Source of the DNA: an uncultured Bacteroidia bacterium
GTDB lineage: Bacteria > Bacteroidota > Bacteroidia > Bacteroidales > UBA932
Length of the DNA: 64,000 nucleotides
Assembly (NCBI GenBank): GCA_902768985.1
Contig: CACXNA010000008.1
Span: 1-64,000 of the forward strand
Reading direction: 5' to 3'
The stretch's first letter is position 1. Each line of letters opens with the position of its first letter. Shown in pieces: positions 20,716 through 54,384 of this stretch. A program made the position numbers and the translations under genes. The notes below the pieces were generated by a model. It did no database searches and had not been told where the DNA came from. It worked only from the letters and a program-made list of their open reading frames with translations.

Positions 20716-20749
20716 GAAAGGCTGGTCCGCAAAACGGATCAGCCTTTTT
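20716..20749. terminator. Bidirectional terminator between the SDR and LytTR genes
   Basis: AAAGGCTGGTCCG and CGGATCAGCCTTT pair across a short A-rich loop, with T runs on both strands. The stop codon of the minus-strand LytTR gene (20739-20741) lies inside the right arm, so the hairpin is partly coding. Confidence 0.8.
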
Positions 20750-21482
20750 CCAACCAACGCAGGAATTCGCTCTCGCGGGAGCGCGTGACGACCGTGGATA
20801 CCTCACCCGGCTTGGGTTTTATCTCCACGGTGTAGCGGCCGGCGTCCACCATCGCACTCTCGATGGCCTTCAGTGCCGAAATGCAGCTGCGGTTGATCCG
20901 GAAGAAACGTGCCGGATCCAACGCCTCCAAAATGGCATCCATCGTGGCGTCCACGATGTATCTTTCGCCGTCGAAGGTCATCAGATAATTACTCTTGTCC
21001 TCGGAGAAGAAACAGGCGATCTGGTCCGTCATCACGGGCACGATCCGGTTGCCCAGCCGGACAACCCAACGCACGCGGTAGCGCTCGGCCTTCTTCCCTT
21101 CCTGCGGATTGTTGAAGATGGTACTGGGAGCAAAGCGCCGCAGGGAAACCACGAGTGCAACGCCTAGCACTAAGGTCGTCACGGACGTCGAAATCACGTG
21201 GACCCACATGTTGCCTTCCCCGAACAGCGGGTCCAGCAACGCAGGCAAGGCGTTGCCAATCAGGTAGGCCAGCACGTTCACGAGCACCAGCGCCACCAGG
21301 GTGAAATAGATCTTGAGCCCGCACAGGCTGCAGAGGATGAAAACCATCGCCAGCGTCAGCAGCGTGAGCGCATGCGTGTCCTCTACATCCATCGATCGGC
21401 AGGCGATACAGATCAATGCGTGAAGGACGGTAAAGACCACCACCATCCATACGGACTCCTTGATTCGAAGCTTATCCATCAT
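20739..21482 (-). CDS. Membrane-anchored LytTR DNA-binding regulator
   Basis: The 247-residue protein has four hydrophobic segments in the first 120 residues and then a LytTR domain (about 135-245): VPVMTDQIACFFSEDKSNYL, FFRINRSCISALKAIESA and VVTRSRESEFLRWLEKG. There is no receiver domain or histidine kinase, so signal sensing would be by the membrane part. It is divergent from the MFS-SusC operon and separated by 136 bp. Its own promoter contains a 17-bp direct repeat with 21-bp period, typical spacing for a LytTR dimer. Autoregulation and control of the polysaccharide locus are likely but unproven. ATGs at 21482 and 21479 are both possible. Confidence 0.9.
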   Translation of the reverse strand: MMDKLRIKESVWMVVVFTVLHALICIACRSMDVEDTHALTLLTLAMVFILCSLCGLKIYFTLVALVLVNVLAYLIGNALPALLDPLFGEGNMWVHVISTSVTTLVLGVALVVSLRRFAPSTIFNNPQEGKKAERYRVRWVVRLGNRIVPVMTDQIACFFSEDKSNYLMTFDGERYIVDATMDAILEALDPARFFRINRSCISALKAIESAMVDAGRYTVEIKPKPGEVSTVVTRSRESEFLRWLEKG

Positions 21483-21499
21483 ACCGGTTATTAGTCTCT

Positions 21500-21531
21500 C
21501 AAAGTTAAAAATTCATCCGGAAATACGCAAA
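21500..21531 (-). promoter_or_regulatory. Promoter of the LytTR gene
   Basis: On the minus strand TTTG (21528-21531), a 20-nt spacer and TAACTTTG (21500-21507) form a good Bacteroidota promoter. The start codon lies 18 nt downstream of the -7 box. Confidence 0.75.
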
Positions 21532-21545
21532 ATTCGTCCGGAAAT
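21508..21545 (-). promoter_or_regulatory. Direct repeat of 21-bp period, putative LytTR binding site
   Basis: The minus-strand sequence ATTTCCGGAYGAATTTT occurs at 21508-21524 and 21529-21545, differing at one base in 17. The start-to-start distance is exactly 21 bp, two helical turns. One copy fills the promoter spacer and the other covers the -33 box, so binding should repress this gene. The divergent transporter start is about 75 bp away. Confidence 0.7.
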
Positions 21546-21592
21546 TCCTCGCAGTCCGTCGCACGTGTGTACTAATGAAAGAAAAAGATTTC

Positions 21593-21600
21593 TATCTTGG
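21593..21600 (+). promoter_or_regulatory. Possible -7 box TATCTTGG of the MFS-Sus operon
   Basis: TATCTTGG deviates at one base from TAnnTTTG and lies 18 nt before the ATG at 21619. No -33 TTTG is present at the right distance, so the promoter may need an activator. Confidence 0.4.
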
Positions 21601-21618
21601 CACCACAATAACACTAAA

Positions 21619-22953
21619 ATGCAACCCAAAAAGTCACTCACATTCTGGCAGATGTGGAATCTCAGCTTCGGTTTTTTCGGAGTGCAGATCGCTTACGCCC
21701 TGCAGAGCGCCAATATCAGCCGAATATTCGCAACGCTGGGTGCGGACCCGCACCAGCTCAGCTTTTTCTGGATCCTGCCCCCGCTGATGGGCATGATCGT
21801 CCAACCCCTCATCGGCAAGTATTCCGACCGCACCTGGTGCCGGATGGGCCGCCGCAAGCCGTACCTGCTGGTCGGCGCCGTCGTGGCCGTGCTGGTGATG
21901 ATTCTCCTGCCCAACGCTGGTAATCTCATTTTCAGCAGCCGCCTGCTGCTGGGCCTGAACGGCGCCATGTGGTTCGGGCTCTTCTCGCTGATCTTCCTCG
22001 ACACCTCGATCAATGTGGCCATGCAGCCTTTTAAGATGATGGTCGGCGATATGGTGGACGAGGAGCAGAAGGCGACGGCCTATTCGATCCAGTCGCTGCT
22101 CTGCAACGCCGGCAGCCTGGTGGGCTACCTTTTCCCGATTTTCTTCACCTGGATCGGCATCGCCAACACCGCCCCCAAGGGCGTCATCCCGCATTCCGTG
22201 GTGTGGAGCTTCTACTGCGGCGCCGCCATCCTGATCCTCTGCGTGCTGTACACCTTCGCCAAGGTGAAGGAGATGCCGCCGGCAGAGTACGCCGCCTTCC
22301 ACGGCATCGACCCGCAGAAGCAGGCCGAGGACGAGCAGAACAAGCCGGGGCTCTTCAAGCTCCTGCTGCACGCGCCGAAGACCTTCTGGACCGTGGGACT
22401 GGTGCAGTTCTTCTGCTGGGCGGCCTTTATGTATATGTGGACCTACACCAACGGCGCCGTGGCGGCGAACTGCTGGGGCACCACGGATCCCGCATCCGAG
22501 GGCTACCAGGCCGCCGGCAACTGGGTGGGGGTCGTCTTCGCCGTGCAGGCGGTGGGCTCCATCCTCTGGGCCATCGTGCTGCCGAAATTCAAATCCCTGA
22601 GGCTCGCCTACGTCGTGAGCCTGCTGATCGGCGCGGCCGGATTCATCTCCGTCGCGTTTGTGCACAACCAGTATCTGCTGTTCGTGTCGTACTTCCTGAT
22701 CGGAGCGGCCTGGGCGGCGATGCTGGCGCTTCCTTTTACCTTGCTCACGAACGCGCTGAGCGGCAGCCACATGGGCTCGTACCTCGGACTCTTCAACTGT
22801 ACCATCTGCCTGCCGCAGATCGTGGCTGCGGCCCTGGGCGGCGTGGTACTGAACTGGGTCGGCGGCGTGCAGGCGAACATGCTGGTGGTCGCCGGTGCCC
22901 TGCTCATCTGCGGCTGCTTCGCCGTAGCGCTCGTGAAAGAGAAAAAACACTAA
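21619..22953 (+). CDS. SLC45-like MFS sugar transporter
   Basis: The 444-residue protein has about 12 membrane helices. It carries the family pattern LSFGFFGVQIAYALQSANISRIF, PPLMGMIVQPLIGKYSDRTW and RMGRRKPYLLVGA, the loop 2-3 motif of SLC45/GPH-like sugar carriers. In Bacteroidota such carriers take maltose or maltodextrins across the inner membrane. It begins the locus and ends 30 bp before susC, so it is likely co-transcribed. The start at 21619 is chosen because the first helix follows directly; the open frame extends to 21460 without membrane or signal features. Confidence 0.9.
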   Translation: MQPKKSLTFWQMWNLSFGFFGVQIAYALQSANISRIFATLGADPHQLSFFWILPPLMGMIVQPLIGKYSDRTWCRMGRRKPYLLVGAVVAVLVMILLPNAGNLIFSSRLLLGLNGAMWFGLFSLIFLDTSINVAMQPFKMMVGDMVDEEQKATAYSIQSLLCNAGSLVGYLFPIFFTWIGIANTAPKGVIPHSVVWSFYCGAAILILCVLYTFAKVKEMPPAEYAAFHGIDPQKQAEDEQNKPGLFKLLLHAPKTFWTVGLVQFFCWAAFMYMWTYTNGAVAANCWGTTDPASEGYQAAGNWVGVVFAVQAVGSILWAIVLPKFKSLRLAYVVSLLIGAAGFISVAFVHNQYLLFVSYFLIGAAWAAMLALPFTLLTNALSGSHMGSYLGLFNCTICLPQIVAAALGGVVLNWVGGVQANMLVVAGALLICGCFAVALVKEKKH

Positions 22954-22983: not shown

Positions 22984-25941
22984 ATGAAAAAGATCCTATC
23001 CCTCCTTGCGGCCATCGCGCTCTCGGGCGTGATGTCCCTTACCGCGAACGCACAAGGCTTCGCGGTCCAGGGTGTGGTTGTCGACCAGATGGGTCCGGTG
23101 ATCGGTGCGGCTGTCCTCGAGGCAGGCACGACCAACGGCGCCGTGACCGACCTGGACGGCACCTTCTCCATCAGGGTGTCTTCTCCCGATGCCACCGTCG
23201 AGGTAAGCTGCATCGGCTACACCTCTCTCAGTTTCAAGGCTTCTGAGATGCCGTCCACGATCACCCTCCACGAGGACAATGAGTTCCTCGACGAGGTCGT
23301 GGTGATCGGTTACGGCACAGTCAAGAAGAGCGATATGACCGGTTCCGTGGTCGCCATCAAGAACGACGAGATGAACCGCGGCGCCATCACATCCCCGAGC
23401 CAGGCCCTCATGGGCAAGGTATCCGGTCTGCACATCGTGCCGGCTTCCGGCCAGCCCGGTGACGGCGCGATGATCCGCATCCGCGGCGCCGCCTCCCTGA
23501 CCGCCAGCAACGACCCGCTCATCGTCATCGACGGCGTGCCCGTGACCGGTGACGGCGGTGCCGGCATGGGCGATCCGCTCGCTTCCGTGAACCCGAACGA
23601 CATCGAGAGTTTCTCCGTGCTGAAGGATGCCTCCGCGACCGCCATCTACGGCTCCCGCGCCTCCAACGGCGTCATCATCATCACCACCAAGAAGGGCAAC
23701 GGCGGCCGGATCAGGGTCACCTACAACGGCAGCGTCAGCGCCAAACAGAACATCGCCACGCTCGATATGATGAACGGCTATCAGTTCCGCGGCGCCGTGA
23801 AGGCCTATCACCCGGAGTATAGCTCCCTGCTCGGCGACGGCAGTACCAACTGGCAGGACCAGATCTACCGCATCGGCGTGTCCACCGACCACAACCTCAG
23901 CGTTTACGGCGGCAACAAACTTCCGTTCCGCGTCAGCGTCGGCTACAACCTCGACCAGGCCACCATCAAGCTCGGCGACAACAACCGCGTCAACGCCGAC
24001 CTGAGCCTCTCGCCGAAATTCCTGGATGACCACCTCTCCGTCAATGTGAACCTGAAGGGTATCTACCAGAAGACCGTCTGGGCCAACAGCGGCGCCGTGG
24101 GCGCGGCCGTTGCTTACGATCCGACCCACCCTGTCTACCGCGCCGACGGCACCCCCTGGAACTGGTATAACGCGGATGGGACGCCCAACACCATGGCTTC
24201 CACCAACCCGCTGTCCGTCCTGTATGACTACTACAACCAGGGCCAGACCCTCCGCAGCATCGGCAACATGCAGGTGGATTACAAGGTCCACGGCCTGGAG
24301 GATCTCCGTTTCAACCTCAACCTCGGCTACGATATCGCAGGCACGGTCGGCAATCAGTACAATGAGATCGGTTCCTACAGCTCCCTGCGCGCCACGCCGG
24401 ACTATGCGGTCATCTACAAGAACTACAACCGCAACCTGTTGCTCGAGGCCTACGCCGACTACAACCATGAGTTCGACTGGTGCACACTCGACGCGATGGC
24501 CGGTTACTCCTGGCAGCGGAACTACGTCCGCTACGACAACACGCAGTACTATAACAAGGAACCGCGCTGGCAGGATGCCGACATCTACGAGGTCAAGCCT
24601 TTCGACGCCCGGGAATATGTGCTGCTTTCCTTCTTCGGGCGCGTCAACTGGGCGATCCGGTCGAAGTACCTCTTCACTTTTACCGTCCGCGAGGATGCCT
24701 CTTCCCGCTTCTCCCCGAAGAACCGCTGGGGATTCTTCCCGTCCGCGGCCTTCGCCTGGAACATCGCCAACGAGGACTTCCTGAAGGGTGTCCGCAACGT
24801 GTCCGCGCTGAAGCTCCGCCTCGGCTGGGGCCGCACCGGCCAGCAGGACATCGGTGGCGACTACTACCCGTACGTCGCCCGCTACTACCAGGCCACGGAC
24901 CAGCGTATGCGCTACAACATGGGCAACGACAACAGTAACGTCCTCGGCCCGGTGGCCTACAATCCCGACATCAAGTGGGAAACCACCGAGACCTGGAACG
25001 CCGGCCTCGACTTCGGCTTCTTCGGCGACCGCCTCACCGGTACCGTGGAGGCCTACTACCGTCGCACCTTCGACCTGTTGAACTCCATCAATTTCCCGAT
25101 GGGTACCAACTTCACCAACATGCTGATCGACAACATCGGCGAGATGGTCAACAAGGGTGTTGAAATCACCCTCAACACCGTCCCGGTCGAGACCAAGGAC
25201 TGGCACTGGTCCATCGGCGGCAACGTCACCTTCCAGGACACCAGGATCACCAAGCTGACGGCGAAGAACATCGCCGGCTACCTCGGCGTGACCACGGGCC
25301 CGAACCTCGGCGGCACCGACGGCTACACCTCCCTGCACCGGGTCGGCTTCGCCCCTTATACCTTCTATCTCTACGAGCAGGCCTACGACACGCTCGGCCG
25401 GCCGATCGAGAACGTGCTCATCGACCGTAACGGCGACGGCACCATCTCCGAGTCCGACCGCTACGTGACCGGCTACAATCCGAATCCCTGGATGTTCTTC
25501 GGCGTCAACACGCACCTGAGCTACAAGAACTGGGACTTCAGCATCAACGGCCACGGTTCCGTCGGCAGCTACGCCCTCAACCGCGTGGCCATGGGCTACA
25601 GCGCCGCCATCTCCGAGGACGCCTCCAAGAACTTCATCCAGAACTGGAGCAACACGTACCTGATCCCGGGCTGGTCGGATCTCCCGCAGACCGTCCAGAA
25701 ATACTCCGACATGTTCGTCGAGAACACCTCGTTCTTCAAGATCGACGACATCAATCTCGGCTACACCTTCCACCTCAAGCGCTTCGCCGAGTCGATCCGC
25801 GTGGCTGCTTCCATCCAGAACGTGGCCACCTTCACCAAGTACCGGGGCCTGGATCCCGAGCTTCAGGGTGTCGACGGCGTGGACAACAACATGTTCCCGC
25901 GCCCGCGCCTCTACACGATCCGTCTCAACATCAACTTCTAA
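22984..25941 (+). CDS. SusC/RagA-family TonB-linked outer-membrane transporter
   Basis: The 985-residue protein has a signal peptide ending ANAQG and a carboxypeptidase-regulatory-like domain (about 28-100: VQGVVVDQMGPVIGAAVLEA). The SusC junction motif LDEVVVIGYGTVKKSDMTGSV follows, then the plug (about 110-230, with IRGAASL and DASATAIYGSRASNGVIIITTKKG) and a beta-barrel ending in RLYTIRLNINF. It forms the TonB-powered pore under the SusD lid and imports oligosaccharides. Placement before SusD, SusE and SusF-like genes supports maltooligosaccharides. Confidence 0.97.
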   Translation: MKKILSLLAAIALSGVMSLTANAQGFAVQGVVVDQMGPVIGAAVLEAGTTNGAVTDLDGTFSIRVSSPDATVEVSCIGYTSLSFKASEMPSTITLHEDNEFLDEVVVIGYGTVKKSDMTGSVVAIKNDEMNRGAITSPSQALMGKVSGLHIVPASGQPGDGAMIRIRGAASLTASNDPLIVIDGVPVTGDGGAGMGDPLASVNPNDIESFSVLKDASATAIYGSRASNGVIIITTKKGNGGRIRVTYNGSVSAKQNIATLDMMNGYQFRGAVKAYHPEYSSLLGDGSTNWQDQIYRIGVSTDHNLSVYGGNKLPFRVSVGYNLDQATIKLGDNNRVNADLSLSPKFLDDHLSVNVNLKGIYQKTVWANSGAVGAAVAYDPTHPVYRADGTPWNWYNADGTPNTMASTNPLSVLYDYYNQGQTLRSIGNMQVDYKVHGLEDLRFNLNLGYDIAGTVGNQYNEIGSYSSLRATPDYAVIYKNYNRNLLLEAYADYNHEFDWCTLDAMAGYSWQRNYVRYDNTQYYNKEPRWQDADIYEVKPFDAREYVLLSFFGRVNWAIRSKYLFTFTVREDASSRFSPKNRWGFFPSAAFAWNIANEDFLKGVRNVSALKLRLGWGRTGQQDIGGDYYPYVARYYQATDQRMRYNMGNDNSNVLGPVAYNPDIKWETTETWNAGLDFGFFGDRLTGTVEAYYRRTFDLLNSINFPMGTNFTNMLIDNIGEMVNKGVEITLNTVPVETKDWHWSIGGNVTFQDTRITKLTAKNIAGYLGVTTGPNLGGTDGYTSLHRVGFAPYTFYLYEQAYDTLGRPIENVLIDRNGDGTISESDRYVTGYNPNPWMFFGVNTHLSYKNWDFSINGHGSVGSYALNRVAMGYSAAISEDASKNFIQNWSNTYLIPGWSDLPQTVQKYSDMFVENTSFFKIDDINLGYTFHLKRFAESIRVAASIQNVATFTKYRGLDPELQGVDGVDNNMFPRPRLYTIRLNINF

Positions 25942-25953
25942 TTGGCAACGGAT

Positions 25954-27612
25954 ATGAAAAAGATACTCAATATCACGCTTGTGGCGCTTGCCGCCCTGGT
26001 TCTCTCTTCCTGCGTCTGGGACCTCAACACCCACCTGCTCAACGAGACCGAAACGACGGCGGACGATGCCTATCAGACCGGGGCGGATTACCTGTCGGCC
26101 CTGACCTACATCAACGCTTTCTACAATTTCGTCAGCTCCAGCGACCCGGGATCCCCTGACATCAGCGTCAAGGATGCCGGCCAGAGCGAACTGGTCCGCC
26201 AGTATATCAACCTCAACGAACTTTCCGTCGACTCCTTCAAGTGCAGCTGGACGGGAGACAGCTACGTCTCCGAGCTTCAGAACAACCGCTGGACGGCCAC
26301 GGAGAACGCCGCTACGATTGCTGTTTATACCCGCTGCCTGAAGGGGATCACCCTCGTCAACGAATTCCTGCTTCAGACCGCACCGGAACAACTCGCCGCC
26401 CGCGGACACGAGAACCTGGCGGGAGACATCGCCGGCTACCGGGCTGAAGCCCGATTCCACCGGGCCCTGTTCTATTATATGCTGATGGACCTCTTCGGCA
26501 ACCCGCCGTTCCCGATGCCTGAAAACATCATGGGTGAGGCTCCCGAGCAGATCCAGCGCGCAGAACTGTTCACCTGGATCGAGACGGAGTGCAACGATCT
26601 CCTGTCCGGCAATGACATGCCGGCCAAGGGCGCCGTTCCCTATCCGCGTCCGACCAAGGGTTCCGTCCAGGCCCTCCTCGCCCGCATGTACCTCAACGCT
26701 GCGGTTTACACCGGCACGGCCCGGTGGCAGGACGCCAAGGATGCGGCCAAGGCCGTCATCGACATGGGCTATGTCCTCCACCCGAAATACCAGGAACTCT
26801 TCATGCAGGACAACACCGAGAGCGGCGCTGCGGCCGACGAATTCATCTTCGCCGTCGAGTACGACCGCGACCATGCCCAGAGCTGGGGCGGCACGACTAC
26901 GATGTGTTCCGCTTTCGTCGGAGGTGCCGCCAATTCCAAGATCAGCTCCCTGCTCGGCTTGAGCGATACGATCATGCCCGAAGGTTGGGACGGCTATCAC
27001 GTGGCTCCCGACTATGTCGCCCGCTTCGAACTCAAGGGTGAGAACTGGGACGGCACCGGATTCGGCTACGACCGCGAGCGTTCCGACAAGCGAGCGTTCT
27101 TCTTCAACGAGGGCGAGCCCGAGTTCATCGCCACGACCACCAAGACCGGCTGGCGCTGCTGGAAATGGAGCAGCCTCAAGTCCGACGGCACGATCCTCGA
27201 CCGTTCCAGCGCGAACTTCAAGTTCTCCTCCTGCGACTTCCCGATCTTCCGCCTCGCGGAAATGTACCTGATCTATGCTGAGGCGGACGCCCGCCTGCAT
27301 GGCGGCGAGACGACCGATCCGACGGCCCTCGGCTACATCAAGGCCCTGCGCGACCGTGCCGGCGTGGAAATGCCGGATGCCGTCACCCTCGACTGGCTGC
27401 TCGACGAGCGCGCCCGCGAACTGATGCTGGAGGGTCACCGCCGCACGGACCTCATCCGCTACGGCTATTTCACCTCCGCTTCGTTCCCGTGGGCCGGCAA
27501 GGGCGGCGTGCCGAACGGCAAGGTTTCCCTGCCCGCCTACCGCACCATCTATCCGCTCCTTGTTTCGGATATCAATGCCAATTCGAACCTCAAGCAGAAT
27601 CCCGGTTATTGA
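25954..27612 (+). CDS. SusD/RagB-family glycan-binding lipoprotein
   Basis: The 552-residue lipoprotein has a lipobox (LVLSSCVWDLN). It contains helical TPR-like segments and the family C-terminal markers YIKALRDRAGVEMPD, DERARELMLEGHRRTDLIRYG and YPLLVSDINANSNLKQNPGY. SusD caps SusC and binds the glycan outside the cell. It starts 12 nt after the susC stop; a TTG at 25942 was not used. Length is normal. Confidence 0.96.
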   Translation: MKKILNITLVALAALVLSSCVWDLNTHLLNETETTADDAYQTGADYLSALTYINAFYNFVSSSDPGSPDISVKDAGQSELVRQYINLNELSVDSFKCSWTGDSYVSELQNNRWTATENAATIAVYTRCLKGITLVNEFLLQTAPEQLAARGHENLAGDIAGYRAEARFHRALFYYMLMDLFGNPPFPMPENIMGEAPEQIQRAELFTWIETECNDLLSGNDMPAKGAVPYPRPTKGSVQALLARMYLNAAVYTGTARWQDAKDAAKAVIDMGYVLHPKYQELFMQDNTESGAAADEFIFAVEYDRDHAQSWGGTTTMCSAFVGGAANSKISSLLGLSDTIMPEGWDGYHVAPDYVARFELKGENWDGTGFGYDRERSDKRAFFFNEGEPEFIATTTKTGWRCWKWSSLKSDGTILDRSSANFKFSSCDFPIFRLAEMYLIYAEADARLHGGETTDPTALGYIKALRDRAGVEMPDAVTLDWLLDERARELMLEGHRRTDLIRYGYFTSASFPWAGKGGVPNGKVSLPAYRTIYPLLVSDINANSNLKQNPGY

Positions 27613-27639: not shown

Positions 27640-28761
27640 ATGAAAAAAGCTATCTATATCATCCTGTTGGCCTTCATTGCCGTATTCACTTTCGCTTCCT
27701 GCGAACGGGAATATGCCATGAGCGAAGTCGGCACGGAGTCCATCGCCCCGGTTCTCCAGGGCGTCAGCGACCAGAGTATCGACGCCAACAATGCCAAGGT
27801 TGAATCCGTGATATTCAACTGGTCGCCCGCCTCCTTCGGCGCGCCGGTCCAGATCCAGTACACGCTCTACCTGACCCGTCCGGACCAGGCCGACTACCTG
27901 ATCGGACAGACTTTCTCGACCTCCGTGGCCGTGGAGAAAGCTTCCATCAACTCCGGCGCCGTGGCGCTCGGCATTCCGAAGAACGGCACCGGCACCGTAG
28001 GCGCCAAGGTCGTCGCCGAGGTCTACACCGGCCCGACGCCGTCCAGTTCCTTCGCCATGAAGAACACGTCCAACTCGATCAGCTTCGACGTCACGACCTT
28101 CGAGGCGGCGAAAGACTGGATCTTCCTCCCGGGCGTCTATAACGGCTGGGGCGACAGCAATGAAAAGGAAGAGTGGAAAGTATGGGAGACCGACGGCGGC
28201 AACAAGAAATACCGCACCCTCGTCCAGCTCAAGGAAGCGGACTGGGACGCCGGTAAGGGTTTCTGCCCGTTCAAGATCTTTGCAAACGGTGCCTGGCTTG
28301 GCTACAACGACGGTTATGAACCCGCCTGGGGCCGCATCTTCGTGAACGACGACGGCAACTGGGCTACACCCGCTTCGGAACCGATCAACTTCATCGAGGT
28401 CAACATGACCACCAAGAAGGGTACCCGCCAGCATGTCACCAAGGTCGGCCTCATCGGCTCCTTCTGCAGCTGGTCGGACGACCAGGAAGTCTCCTTCGTC
28501 TATGACAACGTCAACAACGTCTGGGAGACGCCCGTCCTGACCTTCACCGCCGGCGACGAGTTCCTTGTCCGCCTCAACGCCAACTGGGACGGCGAGAACA
28601 AATACGGCACCGCCACCTCGCCCAGCAGCTCGGTCGAAGGCGGCTTCGAGCTTGAGAACGGCGCCACGGCCGCCAACATCAAGTCCCCCGGCGCAGGCAA
28701 CTACATCGTCCGGCTCTATGCCAACCGCACGCCGCTCGTGATTACCTATATCGCGCAGTAA
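27640..28761 (+). CDS. SusE-like starch-binding lipoprotein
   Basis: The 373-residue lipoprotein (lipobox TFASCER) has an N-terminal Ig-like SusE domain (about 24-150: SVIFNWSPASFGAPVQIQYTLYLTRPDQ). Two SusE/F-type carbohydrate-binding modules follow, each starting with a LPGVYNGWGD or LIGSFCSWSDD motif whose Trp contacts sugar in known SusE/SusF. It would sit on the cell surface and hold starch near SusCD. Position directly after susD fits the starch utilisation order. Confidence 0.9.
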   Translation: MKKAIYIILLAFIAVFTFASCEREYAMSEVGTESIAPVLQGVSDQSIDANNAKVESVIFNWSPASFGAPVQIQYTLYLTRPDQADYLIGQTFSTSVAVEKASINSGAVALGIPKNGTGTVGAKVVAEVYTGPTPSSSFAMKNTSNSISFDVTTFEAAKDWIFLPGVYNGWGDSNEKEEWKVWETDGGNKKYRTLVQLKEADWDAGKGFCPFKIFANGAWLGYNDGYEPAWGRIFVNDDGNWATPASEPINFIEVNMTTKKGTRQHVTKVGLIGSFCSWSDDQEVSFVYDNVNNVWETPVLTFTAGDEFLVRLNANWDGENKYGTATSPSSSVEGGFELENGATAANIKSPGAGNYIVRLYANRTPLVITYIAQ

Positions 28762-28780
28762 CCTTTTGACAGTACGCATT

Positions 28781-31441
28781 ATGAAAAAGATCAAACACAT
28801 ACTGGCCCTTGCCGCCCTGCTCGTCGGCGGTGTCTCCTGCACCATCCTCCAGGAAGACGCCTTCTCGACGGATCCCGTCGCTCCCGAGTTCCTGGCCCAC
28901 GGAGATATCCTGATGACCGAGAACACGATGGACGAGGACGTGAACTTCACATGGACGGCCTACCGATTCCTCCCGGAAGGATTGAACTACACCCTCAAGG
29001 CGACGTATATCGAAGACACGAAGGTGCTGCTGACCCTTCCGCAGACTATCTACAAGACCACCAAGACGGATTTCAAGAACCTCCTGTACACCACCTTCCC
29101 GACGCTGCCCGTCAACGACACCTTCGTCCTGTCGTTCCAGGTTTCCGTTACCGACGATAACGGCAAGGAGTATGCGTCCAACGCGATGGGCGTGACCATC
29201 TACGCCTACGGCGACGCCATCGCCCCCGTCATCACGCCGGCCCAGGAAGAACTGGTGCTCGATCCGGCCAGGGCGATGGAAGAGGTGGCACTCCTCTCCT
29301 GGGAGCCCGCCCGTCTCGTCTATGGTGAAAAGGTGAAATACAATGTCTATCTGAGCACCGTGACCGAGGCCATGATGGCCACCAGCGCCCTTGAGCGGGG
29401 AGAGGTCCTGCTGGCCGAAGGCCTTACCGAGACCTCGTTCTCCATGACGGTGGACGCTCTCAACGAGGCCGTCATCGCCGCCGGCGGCGCCGAAGCGGCC
29501 GCCGTGCCCGTCAAATTCCTCGTGGAAGCCTTCTGCGACTCCATGCCGGAAGGCATCAAGGCGGACGCCGGGATGACCGTCACGACCTTTGTCGCCACCT
29601 TCGCGGAGGTCCTGTACCTCCCGGGCAACTATCAGGGTTGGACGCCGTCAACGGCTCCTACGCTGAAGCTCTCCGGCTCGGTCAAGGGCTATTACGAGGG
29701 CATCGTTGACCTGACCAACCAGGACGGCGGCAACACCCAGTTCAAGTTCTGCCCGGAGCCCGACTGGGGCAACGACTTCGGCGGCACCGTGACCATCGGC
29801 GGCAAGGAAGGCGTCTATGTCCTCGCAGACGGCACTGTGGGCGCGAGCACCAACATCGAAGTCCCGTCCGACATCTACCTGATCCAGCTCAACAAGAAGC
29901 TGAACAAGCTCCGGATGATCAGCATCAAGAGCCTGGGTGCCATCGGCACCGCGTTCGGCAGCTGGGATCAGGAAGTCCCGATGGAATGGGACAAGGAAAA
30001 CAATGTATTCACCGTGACCGCGGACATCGTCCCGGGTGAGTACAAGTTCCGCCTCAACAACGACTGGGACTTCTCCATCGACAACTCCAACGGCGTGAAC
30101 GGCGGCGGCAGCAACTACGAGACCTCCCTGTCCGGCAACTACAAAGTGACCGTTGATATGGGCAGCCACCCGTACACGGTGAAATTCGCCAACACGTCCT
30201 TCCCGGAGAAGCTTTACGTCCCCGGCTCCCACAACGGCTGGGACCACACCGCAACGGTCCTCACCGGTGACGGCGAAGGCCACTACGAGGGCTTTGCCAA
30301 GATCGGCGGCGAGTGGGGCTTCAAGCTTACCAGCCGGCCGTGCTGGAAAGACGACGGCGCGACGGTCTGGGGCCGGAACGACGACGTGGCCGTGGTCACG
30401 GATGACGTGACCGGCACGATCATTTTCGGCATCATGGAGGACGGCGGCAATATCGAGGAGGGCACCACGACGGCCTACAGCTACATCCGGGTCGATCTGG
30501 AGAACCTGGAGGTCCGCACGGTCCCCGTGAACACCCTGGGCATCATCGGCGGTTTCAACGGCTGGTCCGAGGATTACGCGACCTTCACCTATGACGAACA
30601 GAACAACGTCTGGACCGCCTCCCGGGTCGAAATTCAGAAGGGCATCGAGTGGAAGATCCGCTCCAACCAGAGTTGGGACAACGACGACTTCTTCCGGGCC
30701 AACCTGGGCTTCGGCGAGGACAAGAGTTTCGACAATCTCGTCGAGCACGGCGGCAACATATCGGTTGCCGAGAGCGGCATCTATGACCTGACTCTCTCCA
30801 TCGCAACCCGCCCGTTCAAGCTGACCCTCACCAAGGTCGGCGAATCCCAGGATCCGGAACTCCCGGAGGAAATGTTCATGGTCGGCGAAGGTATCGTGGA
30901 CTGGAGCACCTTCCTCCCGATGACGCCGTTCCATTCGCAGGCCGGCATGTTCTGGGCCATCCGCTACATCGAGGCGGGCAAGGGCTTCAAGTTCGCGCCG
31001 GAGGCCGGCTGGGGCAAGGATTTCTGCCAGCTGGACACCAACGAGGGCTTCACGGTCGACGGAGGCAACTGCTATGTCTCCGAGACCGGCATCTACTGCA
31101 TCGGCATCGACATGGACGGCAGCAGGCTCATTGTCGAGCCCGCCAAGGTGTACGGCATCGGAACGGCATGGGACGGGGACTGGATCCCGGCCGATGCGGA
31201 CAATCTCTTCACCGTTGATGGAACGACGCTCGTCGGCACCGCATCCAGTGACGGCACTGTCCGCACCTTTGTCCACAGCGCGCTCCTGCCTTCCGTGGAC
31301 AACTGGTGGCATGCCGAGTTCGTTCCGCTGAACGGCGAGATCTCGTATCGCGCCACCGGCGGTGATCCCGCCGACGTCCCTGTCACGGCCGGCCAGAAGA
31401 TCATTTACGACTTCAATGCCGGCACGGGCGTGATCGAATAA
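28781..31441 (+). CDS. SusF-like multi-domain starch-binding lipoprotein
   Basis: The 886-residue lipoprotein (lipobox GGVSCTI) has SusE-type Ig-like domains in its first 270 residues. Six repeats of the SusE/F binding module follow, starting near residues 277 (LYLPGNYQGW), 386 (LGAIGTAFGSWDQ), 479 (LYVPGSHNGWD), 587 (LGIIGGFNGWSE), 699 (MFMVGEGIVDW) and 789 (VYGIGTAWDGDW). SusF of B. thetaiotaomicron has three such modules, so this is an expanded version. The upstream ATG at 28766 was rejected because it would bury the signal peptide. A strong terminator follows. Confidence 0.88.
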   Translation: MKKIKHILALAALLVGGVSCTILQEDAFSTDPVAPEFLAHGDILMTENTMDEDVNFTWTAYRFLPEGLNYTLKATYIEDTKVLLTLPQTIYKTTKTDFKNLLYTTFPTLPVNDTFVLSFQVSVTDDNGKEYASNAMGVTIYAYGDAIAPVITPAQEELVLDPARAMEEVALLSWEPARLVYGEKVKYNVYLSTVTEAMMATSALERGEVLLAEGLTETSFSMTVDALNEAVIAAGGAEAAAVPVKFLVEAFCDSMPEGIKADAGMTVTTFVATFAEVLYLPGNYQGWTPSTAPTLKLSGSVKGYYEGIVDLTNQDGGNTQFKFCPEPDWGNDFGGTVTIGGKEGVYVLADGTVGASTNIEVPSDIYLIQLNKKLNKLRMISIKSLGAIGTAFGSWDQEVPMEWDKENNVFTVTADIVPGEYKFRLNNDWDFSIDNSNGVNGGGSNYETSLSGNYKVTVDMGSHPYTVKFANTSFPEKLYVPGSHNGWDHTATVLTGDGEGHYEGFAKIGGEWGFKLTSRPCWKDDGATVWGRNDDVAVVTDDVTGTIIFGIMEDGGNIEEGTTTAYSYIRVDLENLEVRTVPVNTLGIIGGFNGWSEDYATFTYDEQNNVWTASRVEIQKGIEWKIRSNQSWDNDDFFRANLGFGEDKSFDNLVEHGGNISVAESGIYDLTLSIATRPFKLTLTKVGESQDPELPEEMFMVGEGIVDWSTFLPMTPFHSQAGMFWAIRYIEAGKGFKFAPEAGWGKDFCQLDTNEGFTVDGGNCYVSETGIYCIGIDMDGSRLIVEPAKVYGIGTAWDGDWIPADADNLFTVDGTTLVGTASSDGTVRTFVHSALLPSVDNWWHAEFVPLNGEISYRATGGDPADVPVTAGQKIIYDFNAGTGVIE

Positions 31442-31464
31442 TCGTTCTCCCGGCTCCATGAAAA

Positions 31465-31494
31465 AAAAGCGCCAATCTTCGGGTTGGCGCTTTT
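31465..31494 (+). terminator. Terminator after the SusC-SusF gene set
   Basis: AAAAGCGCCAA and TTGGCGCTTTT form an 11-bp stem around a UUCG-type loop, followed by a T-rich tract. It lies 24 bp after the SusF-like stop. Confidence 0.85.
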
Positions 31495-31504
31495 GTTTTT
31501 TTTG

Positions 31505-31512
31505 TATATTTG
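31505..31512 (+). promoter_or_regulatory. -7 box TATATTTG of the amylase operon
   Basis: TATATTTG lies 32 nt before the ATG at 31545 and right after the terminator. No good -33 box is seen because the terminator stem occupies that area. The box shows that the enzyme genes have their own promoter. Confidence 0.6.
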
Positions 31513-31544
31513 TAAATTTCCCTGCAGAAAACAATCATTTCGCC

Positions 31545-33806
31545 ATGAAAAGATTCCTCATATTTTTGGCAGGGATGGCGCTGCTGGCCGCCTGCGAGAA
31601 GCCGACCGGAGCGGAGCAGCAGAACACGCTCTCCGTCTCCCCCAAATCCCTTTCTTTCCAGACCGCCGGGGAGTCTAAACTCTCCCTGACCGTCTCCAGC
31701 AACATCCGCTGGACCGCCACCGTGGCCAACGGCGGCTCCTGGTGTTCCCTGTCCGCCTATACCGACGAAGGCAACGCCACCTTGGACGTCACCGCCGTCA
31801 CCAACCTGACAGACCAGCCCCGTACGACCGAAATCACGTTTGCGGCGAGCGGCTGCTCTCCTGTCTCCGTCAGCGTCAGCCAGGTGGCGGGCGAGGCCCA
31901 GGACAAAACCGTCACGCAGACGCTCACGGCCGAAGACCTGTCCTGGGACGGGGAGAAACGTGCCAATGTCACTTACCAGCTGAACGTGTACAGCTTTGCC
32001 GACTCCGACGGAGACGGATGGGGCGACCTGCGCGGCGTGACGCAGCACCTCGACTACTTCGACGAGCTCGGCGTAAGCGCCCTCTGGCTGTCTCCGGTGC
32101 AGACTTCCATGTCCTACCACGGATACGATGTCATTGACTACAACGAGATTAATCCCAAGCTCGGCACGGAGGACGATTTCCGGGAATTAATCGACATGGC
32201 CAAAGCCCGGGGTATCAAAATTTATATGGACTATGTGCTGAACCATACCGGCAACGAAAATCCCTGGTTCAAGGCTGCCTGCGTCAATCCAGGCAGCCCG
32301 TATCGCAACTATTATGTGTTTGAAGACAAACCCGGCGAATCCGTCACCGGCGGGATGGGCACCTGGCACACGTCTTCCAGCGGCGAGCTCGGATACCACG
32401 GCCTGTTGCATTTCAAACTGGACGTATCGAATGCTTCCCAGCCCAGACTGACCGTCACGCAAGCGACCGGCGCCGCACAGAGCGGGAACACGGACACCTC
32501 GGTCAAGTGGTTCATCTACGACAACAACGCCATCCGGATGTACAAGACCGGGACCAATCTCTACGAGATTACGCTCGCCATCGACAATGACTGGGGGGTC
32601 CTGGTCAAGGATGACGCCACGCAGTGGGACAATCACAAGTGGGGAGCCCGGGCGGACGACAAACTGGTCGAATTCGGCACGCCCAAAACCCTGGTCAAGG
32701 GAAGCGCCGCCAACGATCTCATCTTCGGGGGCACATCCGTCCAGTATTACGCGAGCTTCGGCGCTTCGATGCCCGACCTGTATTACGGCCCGGCCGCCAG
32801 CGCCGCCACGTCACCGGCCTTCAAGGCCCTTGTGGCTTCCGTCGACAAGTGGATCCAACTGGGCGTGGCGGGCCTGCGCCTCGACGCCGTGATCTGGATC
32901 TACCAGAAAAACACCACGGCCAACGTGGCCTTCCTCAAACAGTGGTATGACAGCTGCAACACCCTCTGGAAGGCCAACGGCGGCCAGGGGGATTTCTATA
33001 TGGTGGGCGAGGCCTGGTGCGACAACGCGGAGGAGATGGCGCCCTACTACGAGGGGCTGCCGTCCAACTTCAATTTCTACTACTGGTACACCCTCAAGGA
33101 CCGCATCGGCAAGGGCAAGGGCGATGATTTCGCGACGACGCTCGTTTCTTTCCAGAAACAGTTCAGGAAATACCGTTCCGACTTCATCGACGCCATCAAA
33201 CTCTCCAACCATGACGAGGACCGCGCCGCCGAGGATCTCGGCCGGAGCCTGGCCAAGGAAAAACTGGCCGCCGCCGTGCTGCTGACCTCACCGGGCAAGC
33301 CCTACATCTATCAGGGCGAAGAACTCGGCTACTGGGGCAGCAAAGGCAAGGGAGACGAGTACGTCCGCACACCCATCAAGTGGACGCGCAGCGGTGCCGT
33401 GCCTTCCGCAGCCCTGAGCGGTAAAGTGGACAACAATATGCTCTCTGCCGAGATCAGCGTGGAGGCGCAAAATGAAAACGAGGCATCGCTGCTGCGTCTC
33501 TATCAATGCTTCTCGCAGCTCCGCAACGAATACAAGGCCCTCGCCGGCGGCGAAATGACGCCCGTAAATACGTCCAGCAGTGCCCTCAGCGCCTGGACCG
33601 TGACTTCGGACGGACAGACGGCGCTCGTGGTCCACAATTTCAGCGGCAGCAAGGCCGCGGCGTCTTTCGACACGCAGGACCTCAGCCGCTGCGTGGCCCT
33701 CACCGGCACCGCCACCTTGAAGACTACCTCCCGGGGCGATGTGGTCTCCGACCGCGTCCTTACCCTGGATCCGTATTCGTCCGCCGTTTTCATCCTGCAC
33801 AATTAA
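31545..33806 (+). CDS. SusG-like GH13 alpha-amylase lipoprotein with N-terminal BACON domain
   Basis: The 753-residue lipoprotein (lipobox LLAACEK) has a BACON domain (about 27-115: LSVSPKSLSFQTAGESKLSL). The GH13 barrel then begins (VTYQLNVYSFADSDGDGWGD). Catalytic residues are D447 (LRLDAV), E489 (VGEAW) and D557 (NHDED). Between GHG-like HTSSSGELGYHG and MPDLYYG lies an inserted beta domain (about 290-405) placed as CBM58 is in SusG. It should cut starch at the cell surface. The ATG at 31458 was rejected because it lies in the terminator and before the promoter. Confidence 0.93.
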   Translation: MKRFLIFLAGMALLAACEKPTGAEQQNTLSVSPKSLSFQTAGESKLSLTVSSNIRWTATVANGGSWCSLSAYTDEGNATLDVTAVTNLTDQPRTTEITFAASGCSPVSVSVSQVAGEAQDKTVTQTLTAEDLSWDGEKRANVTYQLNVYSFADSDGDGWGDLRGVTQHLDYFDELGVSALWLSPVQTSMSYHGYDVIDYNEINPKLGTEDDFRELIDMAKARGIKIYMDYVLNHTGNENPWFKAACVNPGSPYRNYYVFEDKPGESVTGGMGTWHTSSSGELGYHGLLHFKLDVSNASQPRLTVTQATGAAQSGNTDTSVKWFIYDNNAIRMYKTGTNLYEITLAIDNDWGVLVKDDATQWDNHKWGARADDKLVEFGTPKTLVKGSAANDLIFGGTSVQYYASFGASMPDLYYGPAASAATSPAFKALVASVDKWIQLGVAGLRLDAVIWIYQKNTTANVAFLKQWYDSCNTLWKANGGQGDFYMVGEAWCDNAEEMAPYYEGLPSNFNFYYWYTLKDRIGKGKGDDFATTLVSFQKQFRKYRSDFIDAIKLSNHDEDRAAEDLGRSLAKEKLAAAVLLTSPGKPYIYQGEELGYWGSKGKGDEYVRTPIKWTRSGAVPSAALSGKVDNNMLSAEISVEAQNENEASLLRLYQCFSQLRNEYKALAGGEMTPVNTSSSALSAWTVTSDGQTALVVHNFSGSKAAASFDTQDLSRCVALTGTATLKTTSRGDVVSDRVLTLDPYSSAVFILHN

Positions 33807-33817
33807 ACAGAACGCTC

Positions 33818-34873
33818 ATGATTCGGAAACAGCATATTCTCACCCTTCTCGCGGCGGCGGCTTTCTTGTGCGTCTGCTGCGGAAAAGCACCTCAAACCAC
33901 CCCGGAGACCCCGCCTGAGGTGGAGCCGGAAAGCTTCTTCTGCAAGGGCGCCGACATCAGCTGGGTCACGGAGATGGAGGGCAAGGGGTACAAGTTCTAC
34001 AACGCCGCCGGGCAGGAGCGCGAGCTCACCGCCCTGATGAAGGAGATCGGCTGCAACGCCATCCGCCTGCGCGTGTGGGTGAACCCCACGGGCGGCTGGA
34101 ACGGCCAGGCGGACGTGGTCGCGAAAGCGAAACGCGCCCAGGCATTGGGCCTGAAGCTGTTGATCGACTTCCACTACAGCGACTCCTGGGCCGACCCCGG
34201 CAAGCAGACCGTCCCCGCCGCCTGGCAGGGGAAGGACGCCACCGCGATGGCCGCGGCCGTGAAGGCGCACACGCAGGAAGTCCTGCAGGCGCTGAAGGCC
34301 GCTGGCGTGGATGTCGCCTGGGTGCAAGTGGGCAACGAAACCACGAACGGCATGCTCTGGGACAGCGGCAAGGTGGCCGGCTCGTCGGCGGGGCAGTTCG
34401 TCAATTATTTCCACGCCGGGCGGGAGGCCGTCAAGGCCCTCTATCCGCAGGCGCAGGTCATCCTGCACCTGGACAACGCTTGGAACCTCGGCACGCTGAA
34501 CTGGTTCCTCGCCCTGATGAAGGGCCGCTCGCTGGACTACGACATCCTGGGCCTGTCGCTCTATCCTTCTTATTGGGAGAGCGGCGCCTATCCCGACTGG
34601 ACGCCGAAGGTGCAGCAGTTCGTCAGCAACCTGCCGACCCTGTACCAGAACTACGGGAAGCCTGTCATGCTGGTGGAGTTCGGCATGCCGGCCAGCGAGC
34701 CCGCCAAGGCGAAGGCCGCGCTGCAATACCTGATGCAGAACACGCAGAAGCTCGATTACTTCCAGGGCATCTTCTACTGGGAGCCGGAGGCCGAACATGA
34801 CCGCAACGGCTATGACTACGGCGCTTTCTCCGGCGGCAAGCCGACGGCTGCGCTGGATCCGTTTGGACAATAA
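33818..34873 (+). CDS. GH53 endo-beta-1,4-galactanase lipoprotein
   Basis: The 351-residue lipoprotein (AAAFLCVCCGK) has the GH53 sequence FCKGADISWVTEMEGKGYKF and NAIRLRVWVNP. The acid/base is E174 (QVGNETTNGMLWD) and the nucleophile E287 (MLVEFGMP). GH53 enzymes cut beta-1,4-galactan of type I arabinogalactan, not starch. It sits between two amylase genes, 11 nt after the SusG-like stop, so it belongs to the same operon. Its presence suggests the locus also serves galactan or mixed plant cell-wall material. Confidence 0.93.
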   Translation: MIRKQHILTLLAAAAFLCVCCGKAPQTTPETPPEVEPESFFCKGADISWVTEMEGKGYKFYNAAGQERELTALMKEIGCNAIRLRVWVNPTGGWNGQADVVAKAKRAQALGLKLLIDFHYSDSWADPGKQTVPAAWQGKDATAMAAAVKAHTQEVLQALKAAGVDVAWVQVGNETTNGMLWDSGKVAGSSAGQFVNYFHAGREAVKALYPQAQVILHLDNAWNLGTLNWFLALMKGRSLDYDILGLSLYPSYWESGAYPDWTPKVQQFVSNLPTLYQNYGKPVMLVEFGMPASEPAKAKAALQYLMQNTQKLDYFQGIFYWEPEAEHDRNGYDYGAFSGGKPTAALDPFGQ

Positions 34874-34885
34874 TAACCACGTAAT

Positions 34886-36853
34886 ATGAAAAGATTTCTG
34901 GCAATAATAACCTTGGTCGCCCTGGCGGTCTGCTGCCAACCGGCAGCTGACTATTCCAGCGTGCCTGAGGCCTCCGACGCGCAGATCCAGCGCGTAGAAC
35001 CCCTTTGCTGGTGGGCCGGCATGAACACGCCGCTGCAGCTGATGGTGCAGGGCCCCGGCATCAGTACCTTCGACGTGGCCGTCGAAGGCCGCGGCCTGAG
35101 CGTGACGGCCGTCCACCCGGCGGACAACCCCAACTTCCTCTTCCTCGATATGGCGGTGAAGGCCCCGGGCGAATACAACCTCGTCTTTACCAAGGGTTTG
35201 GAACAGTTCAAGTACCCCTACGTCATCCGCGAGCGCGCGGCCGGCAGCCGGGAACGGGAGAGTTTCTCGACTGCGGACATGATTTATCTGATCATGCCCG
35301 ACCGCTTCGCCTCGGCCACGGGCGACAACGATACCGCCTGGCCGGGCGGGGACTATGACGACGGCTCCGCCCGCCCCTGGGCGGTGCCCGTGACGCCGGA
35401 TACGGTGGACCGTACCGACCCCGTAACCCGCCACGGCGGTGACATCCAGGGCATGATCGACCACCTCGACTACATCGCGGACCTCGGAGCGACCGCCATC
35501 TGGTGCACCCCGCTGCTGCTCGACAACCAGCCCCGCGAGTCCTACCACGGCTATGCCTGTGCGGACTACTACCACATCGATCCGCGCTTCGGCGACAATG
35601 CTCTCTACAAACAGTTCGTGGACGCCGCGCACGCGAAGGGCATCAAGGTCATCATGGACATCGTCACCAACCACTGCGGCACCGCCCACTGGTGGATGGA
35701 CAACGCGCCCTTCGCGGACTGGTACCACCCGGCCGAGCCGTATATGCAGATGAACGCCCTCTTCTCCGTCTACATGGACCCGAACGCCTCGGTCCGCGAC
35801 CGGGAGCGCCAGGAGAGCGGCTGGTTCGTCCCTTCCATGCCGGACATGAACCTGGACAACCCCTACGTGCTGAAGTATTTCCAGCAGTGGGCCGTCTGGT
35901 GGATCGAATACGCCGGCTTGGACGGCCTGCGCGTGGATACCTACCCCTACAACGAGCCGGAACCCATGTCGCAGTGGTGCAAGGCCGTGACCGACGAGTA
36001 TCCCAACATGAACATCGTCGGCGAGTGCTGGGACCGGAATATCCCCCAGCTCGCCTACTGGCAGAAGGACAACCCCAACGTGAACGGCTTCAATTCGAAC
36101 CTGCCGTCCATCATGGACTTCCCGCTTGAGAGCGCCATCAAGACCGCCCTCTGCGAGGATTACGTCAACTGGGACGAGGGAATGACGCGCATCTATACCG
36201 TCATCGCCCAGGATTTCGCCTACCGCGACCTGAGCCACATGATGACCTTCTTCGCCAACCACGACCACGCCCGGACGGGCGACGTGCTCCGCGAAGACCC
36301 GGCCCGCATGAAGCTCGCCATCACCCTGCTGGCCACGCTGCGCGGAATCCCCCAGCTCTACTACGGCGACGAAATGATGTTCCTCGAGCGCAAGGATGTT
36401 CCAAGCCATGATGGGGCCAAGCGCATCGACTTCCCGGGCGGCTGGGCAGGCGACCCCGTCAATCTCTTTGACAAGGCCGGCCGCGAGCAGGCGCCCCGCC
36501 AGTACAAATCCGCCGCCGAGCTGTATGACTACACCGCCCGCCTCTTCAACTGGCGCAAGGGCAGCAAGGCCGTGCAGGACGGCAAGACGCTCCATTTCCT
36601 CTCCCGCGCCAACACGGGGGCCACGAACATCACCGACAACACCTACGCCTATTTCCGCTACACGGACACGGACGCGGTATTCGTGTACATCAACAATACC
36701 TTCGAGCCCCGCGCCCTCGACTGGAACCACTACCGTGAATTCGTGGAGGGCCCCGTGGAGGGCCGTGACGTGCTCACCGGAGAGAACATCACCCTCCGGG
36801 ACGGCATCACCATCGCTCCGAAGAGCGCATTCGTAGTAGAATTCAAACGCTGA
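34886..36853 (+). CDS. SusA-like GH13 neopullulanase/cyclomaltodextrinase
   Basis: The 655-residue protein has an exported N-terminus (LALAVCCQPAA, probably lipoprotein). An N-terminal Ig-like cyclomaltodextrinase domain (about 28-125: IQRVEPLCWWAGMNTPLQLM) is followed by the GH13 barrel (DMIYLIMPDRFA). Catalytic residues are D351 (LRVDTY), E380 (VGECW) and D460 (NHDHAR). This is the domain order of SusA and related neopullulanases, which cut maltooligosaccharides in the periplasm. The stop overlaps the start of the GH2 gene (ATGA-type junction at 36851-36855). Confidence 0.93.
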   Translation: MKRFLAIITLVALAVCCQPAADYSSVPEASDAQIQRVEPLCWWAGMNTPLQLMVQGPGISTFDVAVEGRGLSVTAVHPADNPNFLFLDMAVKAPGEYNLVFTKGLEQFKYPYVIRERAAGSRERESFSTADMIYLIMPDRFASATGDNDTAWPGGDYDDGSARPWAVPVTPDTVDRTDPVTRHGGDIQGMIDHLDYIADLGATAIWCTPLLLDNQPRESYHGYACADYYHIDPRFGDNALYKQFVDAAHAKGIKVIMDIVTNHCGTAHWWMDNAPFADWYHPAEPYMQMNALFSVYMDPNASVRDRERQESGWFVPSMPDMNLDNPYVLKYFQQWAVWWIEYAGLDGLRVDTYPYNEPEPMSQWCKAVTDEYPNMNIVGECWDRNIPQLAYWQKDNPNVNGFNSNLPSIMDFPLESAIKTALCEDYVNWDEGMTRIYTVIAQDFAYRDLSHMMTFFANHDHARTGDVLREDPARMKLAITLLATLRGIPQLYYGDEMMFLERKDVPSHDGAKRIDFPGGWAGDPVNLFDKAGREQAPRQYKSAAELYDYTARLFNWRKGSKAVQDGKTLHFLSRANTGATNITDNTYAYFRYTDTDAVFVYINNTFEPRALDWNHYREFVEGPVEGRDVLTGENITLRDGITIAPKSAFVVEFKR

Positions 36854-40496: not shown

Positions 40497-40505
40497 CTTT
40501 ACGCC

Positions 40506-42695: not shown

Positions 42696-42795
42696 CCAGG
42701 GGCGGCAGGGCCGTTTCGTAGCCGTTCACCCGGACAGGGTCGCGCGATAGCGAAGCGAAGCACGATAGCGGAGAAACGGCCGCTGCCGCCCTGGC
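42695..42795. terminator. Long inverted repeat between GH97 and GH77 genes
   Basis: Two 23-nt arms (42695-42717 and 42773-42795) pair almost perfectly, from GCCAGGG...CCGTTTC to GAAACGG...CCCTGGC, with two single-base bulges. The 55-nt centre contains direct copies of CGATAGCG. There is no U-run, so it may be a processing or stability element rather than a simple terminator. Confidence 0.55.
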
Positions 42796-42815
42796 AGAAC
42801 AAAATACAAACAACT

Positions 42816-54256: not shown

Positions 54257-54315
54257 AACGATTCGGTTTTAGTCACGGCACACTAAATACAAAACGGTTG
54301 CCAGTTTCGGGGCAA

Positions 54316-54345: not shown

Positions 54346-54371
54346 TCGGCGGGAATGGAACGGAATTTTTC

Positions 54372-54379: not shown

Positions 54380-54384
54380 TGCAT

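Follow-up and report, generated by a model that had tools for sequence, protein, structure and literature searches.

The PUL regulators that are named in the available part of PMC3878776 are SusR, HTCS and ECF/anti-sigma systems, and the word LytTR is absent from that part. Membrane LytTR regulators are, as a kind, already known, and examples are CoxC (PMC11347149) and the LRS-like regulators of Bacteroides (PMC6193735), as presented in the available sections of these papers. In the same sections, LytTR sites are described as direct repeats of 9 bp with a spacing of 10-13 bp (PMC11347149) that are often 12 bp apart and located approximately 10 bp upstream of the -35 box (PMC6193735). In the LRS-like operons of Bacteroides, the repeats are found approximately 10-11 bp before a TGTA / TATCTTTG promoter (PMC6193735). 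The LytTR domain is also part of LytS/LytTR two-component systems, such as AgrC/AgrA, BtsS/BtsR and YpdA/YpdB, in which head-to-tail sites, spaced by approximately two turns, directly precede the promoter of the target. One-component regulators are often regarded as the ancestors of two-component systems. In the open-licence PMC literature, judged by title and the start of the abstract, no Sus-type locus with a LytTR regulator was found, and neither was a LytTR fusion derived from a two-component pair.

Here, a starch locus of an uncultured Bacteroidia bacterium, perhaps of the genus Cryptobacteroides, is described, which is part of the window, the whole stretch of 64,000 nucleotides that was analysed. 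Sequence comparison makes it quite likely that, at this locus, a two-component pair has collapsed into a one-component membrane regulator, which kept its operator and would activate the adjoining MFS/Sus operon.

The starch locus and its membrane LytTR gene

The locus is a Sus-type starch utilisation locus, in which SusC, SusD, SusE and SusG proteins and starch-active enzymes are all present (Pfam; Table 1). Their spacing and strand indicate that the glycosidase genes downstream of the amylase probably belong to the same operon as the MFS-Sus genes. Comparison with relatives places the start of the MFS gene at the ATG at 21619; the TTG at 21460 from the mechanical ORF list was therefore not used. 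As the earlier note had described, the LytTR gene is divergent from the MFS-SusC operon, and on its downstream side it is followed by a convergent ORF that ends at 20683. The genes on the left-hand side, labelled from their sequences, presumably encode a short-chain dehydrogenase, an acyltransferase, a GTP cyclohydrolase, QueD-like proteins and a helicase. Two QueD-like genes (56% identical) are located on either side of the GTP cyclohydrolase-like gene (16235-17476, +).

The Pfam scan covered 25 ORFs between 20739 and 63892, and no SusR-, HTCS- or ECF-type genes were found among these, in agreement with the previous claim that no SusR, hybrid two-component regulator or ECF/anti-sigma pair is present beside the locus. 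The only other regulator in the scanned range is a second LytTR gene (54298-55128, +), which lies approximately 10 kb beyond the last of the amylolytic genes. The protein encoded by this second gene is 276 aa long and has three predicted membrane helices and a proline-rich loop, and a nitroreductase gene adjoins it.

Table 1. Features of the starch locus and its regulatory region, in positions of the window
Feature	Position	Strand	Basis or remark
One-component membrane LytTR regulator gene (247 aa)	20739..21482	-	ORF; Pfam LytTR E 4e-11
PF04397 match	20751..21047	-	Pfam
Four-helix membrane domain, approximately residues 1-116	21135..21482	-	tblastn, 29-37% identity to kinase N-termini; alignment
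Site 0, degenerate (TTATTAGTC; core TTAGTC at 21491)	21487..21495	+	Chain search; 21 bp before site 1
-7 box, regulator's own promoter (TAACTTTG; plus strand CAAAGTTA)	21500..21507	-	4 bp from first TTCRTC
Site 1 (AAAATTCAT)	21508..21516	+	In spacer of regulator's own promoter
-33 box, regulator's own promoter (TTTG; plus strand CAAA)	21528..21531	-	20 bp from -7 box
Site 2 (AAAATTCGT)	21529..21537	+	21 bp from site 1; overlaps regulator's own -33 box
Site 3, degenerate (GCAGTCCGT; core TCCGTC at 21555)	21551..21559	+	22 bp from site 2; ends 8 bp upstream of MFS -33 box
Weak -33 element, MFS promoter (TGTA)	21568..21571	+	Sequence
-7 box, MFS/starch operon promoter (TATCTTGG)	21593..21600	+	38 bp from start of site-3 core
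MFS sugar transporter, starch operon gene 1	21619..22953	+	Pfam MFS_1, MFS_2; orthologues adjoin two-gene and fused regulators
SusC-like TonB-dependent transporter	22984..25941	+	Pfam
SusD-like lipoprotein	25942..27612	+	Pfam
Two genes: SusE protein, then larger SusE/F-like protein	27640..31441	+	Pfam SusE
SusG-like alpha-amylase with CBM58	31458..33806	+	Pfam
GH53, cyclomaltodextrinase-type GH13, GH2, GH13, GH97 and GH77 glycosidase genes	33908..44687	+	Pfam

In the window gene, the LytTR domain scores 43.4 bits against a cut-off of 22.6. No Pfam match was obtained for a histidine kinase core (PF06580) or an MHYT domain, both up to E 1, or for a receiver domain (PF00072). The AF2 model resolves only four helices, which are membrane helices at 3-29, 35-52, 57-86 and 91-116, and the LytTR part has a pLDDT below 50. 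A search of the PDB by sequence gave no match with the alignment of the fused proteins and only four unrelated hits (E 0.006-1.1) with one LytTR domain, and a search by fold gave no relative at E<=0.001. The LytTR gene is a single gene, and no separate membrane inhibitor gene is present in the same operon.

The window's genome (G000) contains ten LytTR domains and only one LytS-type kinase, which is located beside one of these domains and away from this locus. Membrane helices are predicted for at least five of the nine LytTR proteins besides that of the window gene, and therefore one-component membrane LytTR regulation looks common in this genome. Control by a membrane LytTR protein had been considered unusual for a Sus-type system. 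This view calls for some caution, given CoxC, the LRS-like proteins and the other membrane LytTR proteins of this genome.

Two-gene relatives and the fused regulator

The window protein was searched in 61 genomes, and matches were obtained in 32. In the same genus, the match typically comes in two pieces, with the C-terminal half (approximately 133-246) in an ORF of approximately 255 aa and the N-terminal half (approximately 9-140) in a neighbouring ORF of approximately 400-510 aa. In the 30 two-gene loci that were compared, a LytS-type histidine kinase is followed by a REC-LytTR response regulator on the same strand, beside the orthologous MFS gene of the MFS-SusC starch operon. Of the 35 non-fused regions, 33 have a kinase ORF with an H-box next to the LytTR gene, and the two regions without an H-box call (L074 and L144) have an ORF of 400-462 aa in that place. 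In L067, the only pair that was scanned, Pfam gives His_kinase (PF06580, E 8e-24) for the kinase and Response_reg (PF00072, E 2e-13) together with LytTR for the regulator. The closest relatives, L067, L070 and L154, have an MFS that is 89-93% identical to that of the window, and the genes on the far side match those of the window as well. Alignment with these pairs shows that the window gene corresponds to a fusion of the first four membrane helices of the kinase, a short linker and the LytTR domain, from which the kinase core and the receiver are gone. That the regulator gene appears to be a collapsed histidine kinase-response regulator pair was missed in the earlier note.

The fused form was observed in multiple genomes. 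Among 400 genomes of the genus, 261 have a match, and the full-length fused form is present in the window and five others, with identities of 53-72%. A scan of contig collections resulted in 12 full-length fused loci, five of which come from genomes already found in the genus search. In total, 13 fused loci are available, all divergent from the MFS gene. SusC was seen in 11 of the 12 contig-scan loci, and the twelfth contig (L160) ends inside the MFS gene. This contig is titled as uncultured Clostridia, while its fused gene is 72% and its neighbours are 90-94% identical to those of the window, and it is probably a misbinned contig.

An assembly artefact or a recent deletion, in which the pair would really be intact and the fused gene a product of mis-joining, has been considered, since the titled records are MAGs or uncultured assemblies, bar one distant hit. 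This explanation has a negligible probability and is rejected on the 12 further full-length fused loci. The fused loci were recovered in several studies, from deer, buffalo, sheep, goat, horse and other hosts; their proteins share 50-79% identity with that of the window, every ORF is open and they form one clade. In addition, the window protein has no further match in its own genome, and the only LytS-type kinase of this genome lies elsewhere.

For the two closest fused pairs, dN/dS was calculated, and values of approximately 0.27 (0.21/0.78) for the window and G332 and 0.08 (0.044/0.53) for G305 and G231 were obtained. These ratios show that the fused genes have been under purifying selection.

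In the LytTR tree, the six fused rows form one clade with a support of 100/99. When all 13 fused rows are included, the trees of each half also have one fused clade each (SH-aLRT 99), with the caveat that a long kinase branch meets the fused branch in the tree of the N-terminal half. The MFS tree for these loci does not keep the fused ones together (four changes, AU p 0.0001), and the rpoB tree, for which 30 genomes were tried and 18 had the full gene, places the window's genome with the two-gene genomes G008 and G308 and apart from the fused G231 and G305 (AU p 0.006). Since the fused loci form one clade in both halves and are scattered in the MFS and rpoB trees, the alleles were probably swapped in place. 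The simplest reading of these trees is probably a single fusion, followed by later in-place exchange of regulator alleles. The source genes are adjacent, on the same strand and in the right order, and therefore one in-frame deletion of approximately 1.2 kb would suffice.

The scattering in the MFS and rpoB trees could also be explained by a fused form that is ancestral or that arose several times. This is very unlikely, given the single fused clade in the trees of both halves. In addition, among 393 genomes of the order, a set with few genomes of the window's genus, the window's own is the only full-length match among the matches listed, and the separate LytTR domain is widespread.

The repeat array and the two promoters

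Two 17-nt units, AAAATTCATCCGGAAAT (21508-21524) and AAAATTCGTCCGGAAAT (21529-21545), are 94% identical and 21 bp apart. With up to three mismatches allowed, no further copy of the 17-mer is present in the window, and 100 shuffles gave a mean of 0.19. A chance pair is ruled out by these shuffles and by the conservation in relatives. The weaker sites 0 and 3 carry the register on at both sides of the 17-nt pair. Site 0 is located just downstream of the regulator's own -7 box, and at this place a similar TYTGTC was observed by eye in several fused loci. The geometry of the sites matches that of LytTR, with a 9-bp site, a 12-bp spacer and cores at 21/22-bp steps, which supports the earlier comparison with the two-turn spacing of direct half-sites bound by LytTR dimers. 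Sites 1 and 2 each match eight of the nine positions of [TA][AC][CA]GTTN[AG][TG], which we take to be the LytTR consensus. The position assigned earlier to the two units, one in the -33/-7 spacer of the LytTR gene and the other over its -33 box, also agrees with the boxes on the minus strand.

To the 40 regions that were fetched by regulator match, not by motif, the window's own was added, resulting in 41 regions. Sites were counted in the 36 regions with an orthologous MFS (more than 60% identical); L078, L144 and L155, with an MFS that is 39-43% identical, and L080 and L153, with no MFS hit, were left out. In one of these, L144 (G365), the MFS is approximately 40% identical to that of the window, yet TTCRTC is present at -130, -109 and -88 and the kinase-regulator pair is retained. 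A pair of TTCRTC motifs at 21 bp was found within 200 bp upstream of the MFS gene in 33 of the 36 loci, many of which are two-gene loci of close relatives with identical site positions and hence not independent. Each of the other periods from 12 to 39 was found in zero or one locus, except period 22 (three loci), and 1000 Markov shuffles gave a mean of 0.013 loci with a TTCRTC pair and a maximum of one. Seven more fused loci were then added (12 contig-scan records minus five duplicates of genomes in hand), after which TTCRTC sites at 21/22-bp steps were present in 40 of 43 loci. The exact pair is missing in L072, L074 and L079, in which single or degenerate sites are kept.

As a control, 20 genomes of the same genus without a regulator match were used. 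These contain eight MFS orthologues (78-85%), seven of which are readable (L215 was excluded), and a TTCRTC pair was found in none of these seven. The earlier note had proposed to look for the repeat in related genomes in which the divergent gene pair is conserved, and there it is indeed conserved, together with the regulator. The 17-bp units with an exact 21-bp period are present in the window, but the unit that is conserved in relatives is a core of approximately 10 bp, [AG]C[AC][AG]TTC[AG]TC, and the bases between the cores are little conserved. Because these bases vary freely and the pair is absent without the regulator, mere relatedness is less likely as the cause of the conservation, although it is not fully removed because of the many close relatives among the two-gene loci.

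The array has a fixed position relative to the MFS promoter. In 37 of 40 loci, the start of the last core is followed at a distance of 37-39 bp by a -7-like box, defined by a score of at least 4 of 5, and in other 3-bp windows (outside 36-38) such a box is present in only zero to five loci. The box at 37-39 bp is the best-scoring -7 candidate in 33 of the 40 loci; the best candidate lies elsewhere in seven, four of which also score at 37-39 bp. No -7 box at this distance was found in L071, L140 and L142. In L140 and L142, degeneracy keeps the third site below the threshold, and L071 misses outright. The distance between the MFS -7 box and the MFS start varies from approximately 26 to 80 bp across the loci, and the MFS -33 elements are poor matches. 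The last site at a fixed 37-39 bp from the MFS -7 box indicates that the array is anchored to the starch operon promoter. Also, in L076 (G025), the kinase-regulator pair and the MFS gene have the same direction and are not divergent, and the 21-bp array is still upstream of the MFS gene, which speaks for the MFS gene as the target of the array.

The spacing to the regulator's own promoter differs between the two forms. In all 13 fused loci, a distance of exactly 4 bp separates the own -7 box from the first TTCRTC, whereas the box lies 36 bp from the first site in 14 of the 27 two-gene loci and at other distances in the rest. The three closest two-gene relatives do not have the 4-bp offset. The array overlaps the regulator's own promoter in the fused clade (13/13), and the operator layout travels with the gene. 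These differences in own-promoter coverage suggest that autoregulation may have changed along with the fusion.

The repeat had previously been assigned to the promoter of the LytTR gene itself. This holds for the overlap in the fused clade, but the constant spacing is to the MFS promoter. An array that only serves the autoregulation of the LytTR gene would explain sites 1 and 2 on the own -33/-7 region in every fused locus. However, it is the spacing to the MFS -7 box that is held in both forms of the locus, and this makes the explanation extremely unlikely; as an own-promoter element only, the array is ruled out by spacing.

Another explanation is that the fused gene is no more than a remnant in decay, with the array being bound in trans by another LytTR protein or by a SusR/HTCS-like protein. 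The genome encodes nine LytTR domains besides that of the fused gene, the sites of SusR/HTCS-like proteins are direct repeats too and the fused branch in the LytTR tree is long. On the other hand, the 13 fused ORFs are intact, both halves have a dN that is far lower than dS, the array accompanies the regulator and is absent from the readable MFS orthologues without it, and its layout shifts together with the fusion. A remnant is considered quite unlikely on these grounds, and a functional fused regulator that acts on the starch operon is the preferred reading.

In the window's genome, the three-site pattern with up to two mismatches gives 88 matches, compared to 14 for the reversed control, an excess that is probably due to codon bias. 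Eight exact pairs are found outside the locus, at least six of them in open frames of more than 280 codons. With so short a core motif, coding sequence dominates a genome-wide target search, and the regulator could have other targets in the genome.

Proposed control and comparison with known systems

In the proposed mechanism, the fusion probably goes back to a single in-frame deletion within the kinase-regulator operon, after which gene and operator were probably swapped in place between species. The LytTR domains would bind the array as head-to-tail copies, and the membrane helices would pass the signal straight to the DNA-binding domain, with no phosphate transfer. The array, which ends approximately 8-10 bp before a poor -33 box, would allow the protein to activate the MFS/Sus operon. 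Activation is the favoured reading, based on the close fit to the known geometry of LytTR activators. Because the sites of the fused clade coincide with the promoter of the regulator itself, binding there would probably repress the regulator's own gene. From the content of the operon, a maltodextrin-related cue is a natural guess for the signal.

The fused protein could instead be a repressor of the MFS/Sus operon that leaves the array on signal. CoxC, a one-component LytTR protein of the membrane, represses the cox genes in this way and has three direct repeats in the available description (PMC11347149), and the array of the window has three to four sites. However, the operator of CoxC overlaps the -35 box of the target, whereas the array in the window stops short of the MFS -33 box and overlaps the regulator's own promoter instead. 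Also, poor MFS -33 elements suit an activated promoter. Repression of the starch operon is therefore unlikely, and its activation by the fused protein remains preferred.

More broadly, it is moderately probable that the genus uses LytS/LytTR as a further class of starch-locus regulators and that one lineage lost the phosphotransfer core, with the operator sliding onto the regulator's own promoter and the one-gene cassette replacing, or being replaced by, the two-gene version in place. This would be a clear case of the reverse of the direction in which two-component systems are often thought to evolve, in which the promoter sites have survived and both forms still exist at the same locus within a single genus. 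The presence of both forms at one locus allows one to ask which parts of the phosphorelay are dispensable for control, and this herbivore-gut lineage is a natural test of how sensing circuits simplify. The array also provides a precise candidate operator for testing in uncultured gut bacteria. LytTR signalling would join the short list of controllers of Sus-type starch loci, namely SusR, HTCS and ECF/anti-sigma systems in the available part of PMC3878776.

Compared with known systems, the pair in the relatives has the architecture of LytS/LytTR two-component systems. The window form shares with these systems the LytTR domain and the head-to-tail sites upstream of the target promoter, but it is without the histidine kinase core and the receiver. 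As far as described in the available section of PMC11347149, CoxC (MHYT-LytTR) also combines an N-terminal membrane sensor and LytTR in one protein and has its three direct repeats at the target promoter. In contrast to CoxC, the window protein has no MHYT domain and four instead of seven helices, its array is located upstream of the target -33 box and not over it, and its two-component origin is visible in relatives.

The LRS-like regulators of Bacteroides have several membrane segments before the LytTR domain, as in the window, and their promoter and repeat spacing are very like those of the MFS promoter (PMC6193735, in the section available). LRS has a separate membrane inhibitor gene and activates its own operon in the same source, whereas the window has a single gene with a fixed spacing to a divergent starch operon. 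SusR of Bacteroides thetaiotaomicron, in the available part of PMC3878776, is likewise a membrane-spanning one-component regulator beside the starch operon with direct-repeat sites, and its maltose sensor is periplasmic and its DNA-binding domain unrelated to known ones. In contrast to SusR, the window protein has four helices and no large periplasmic domain in the AF2 model, and the only domain found in it is LytTR.
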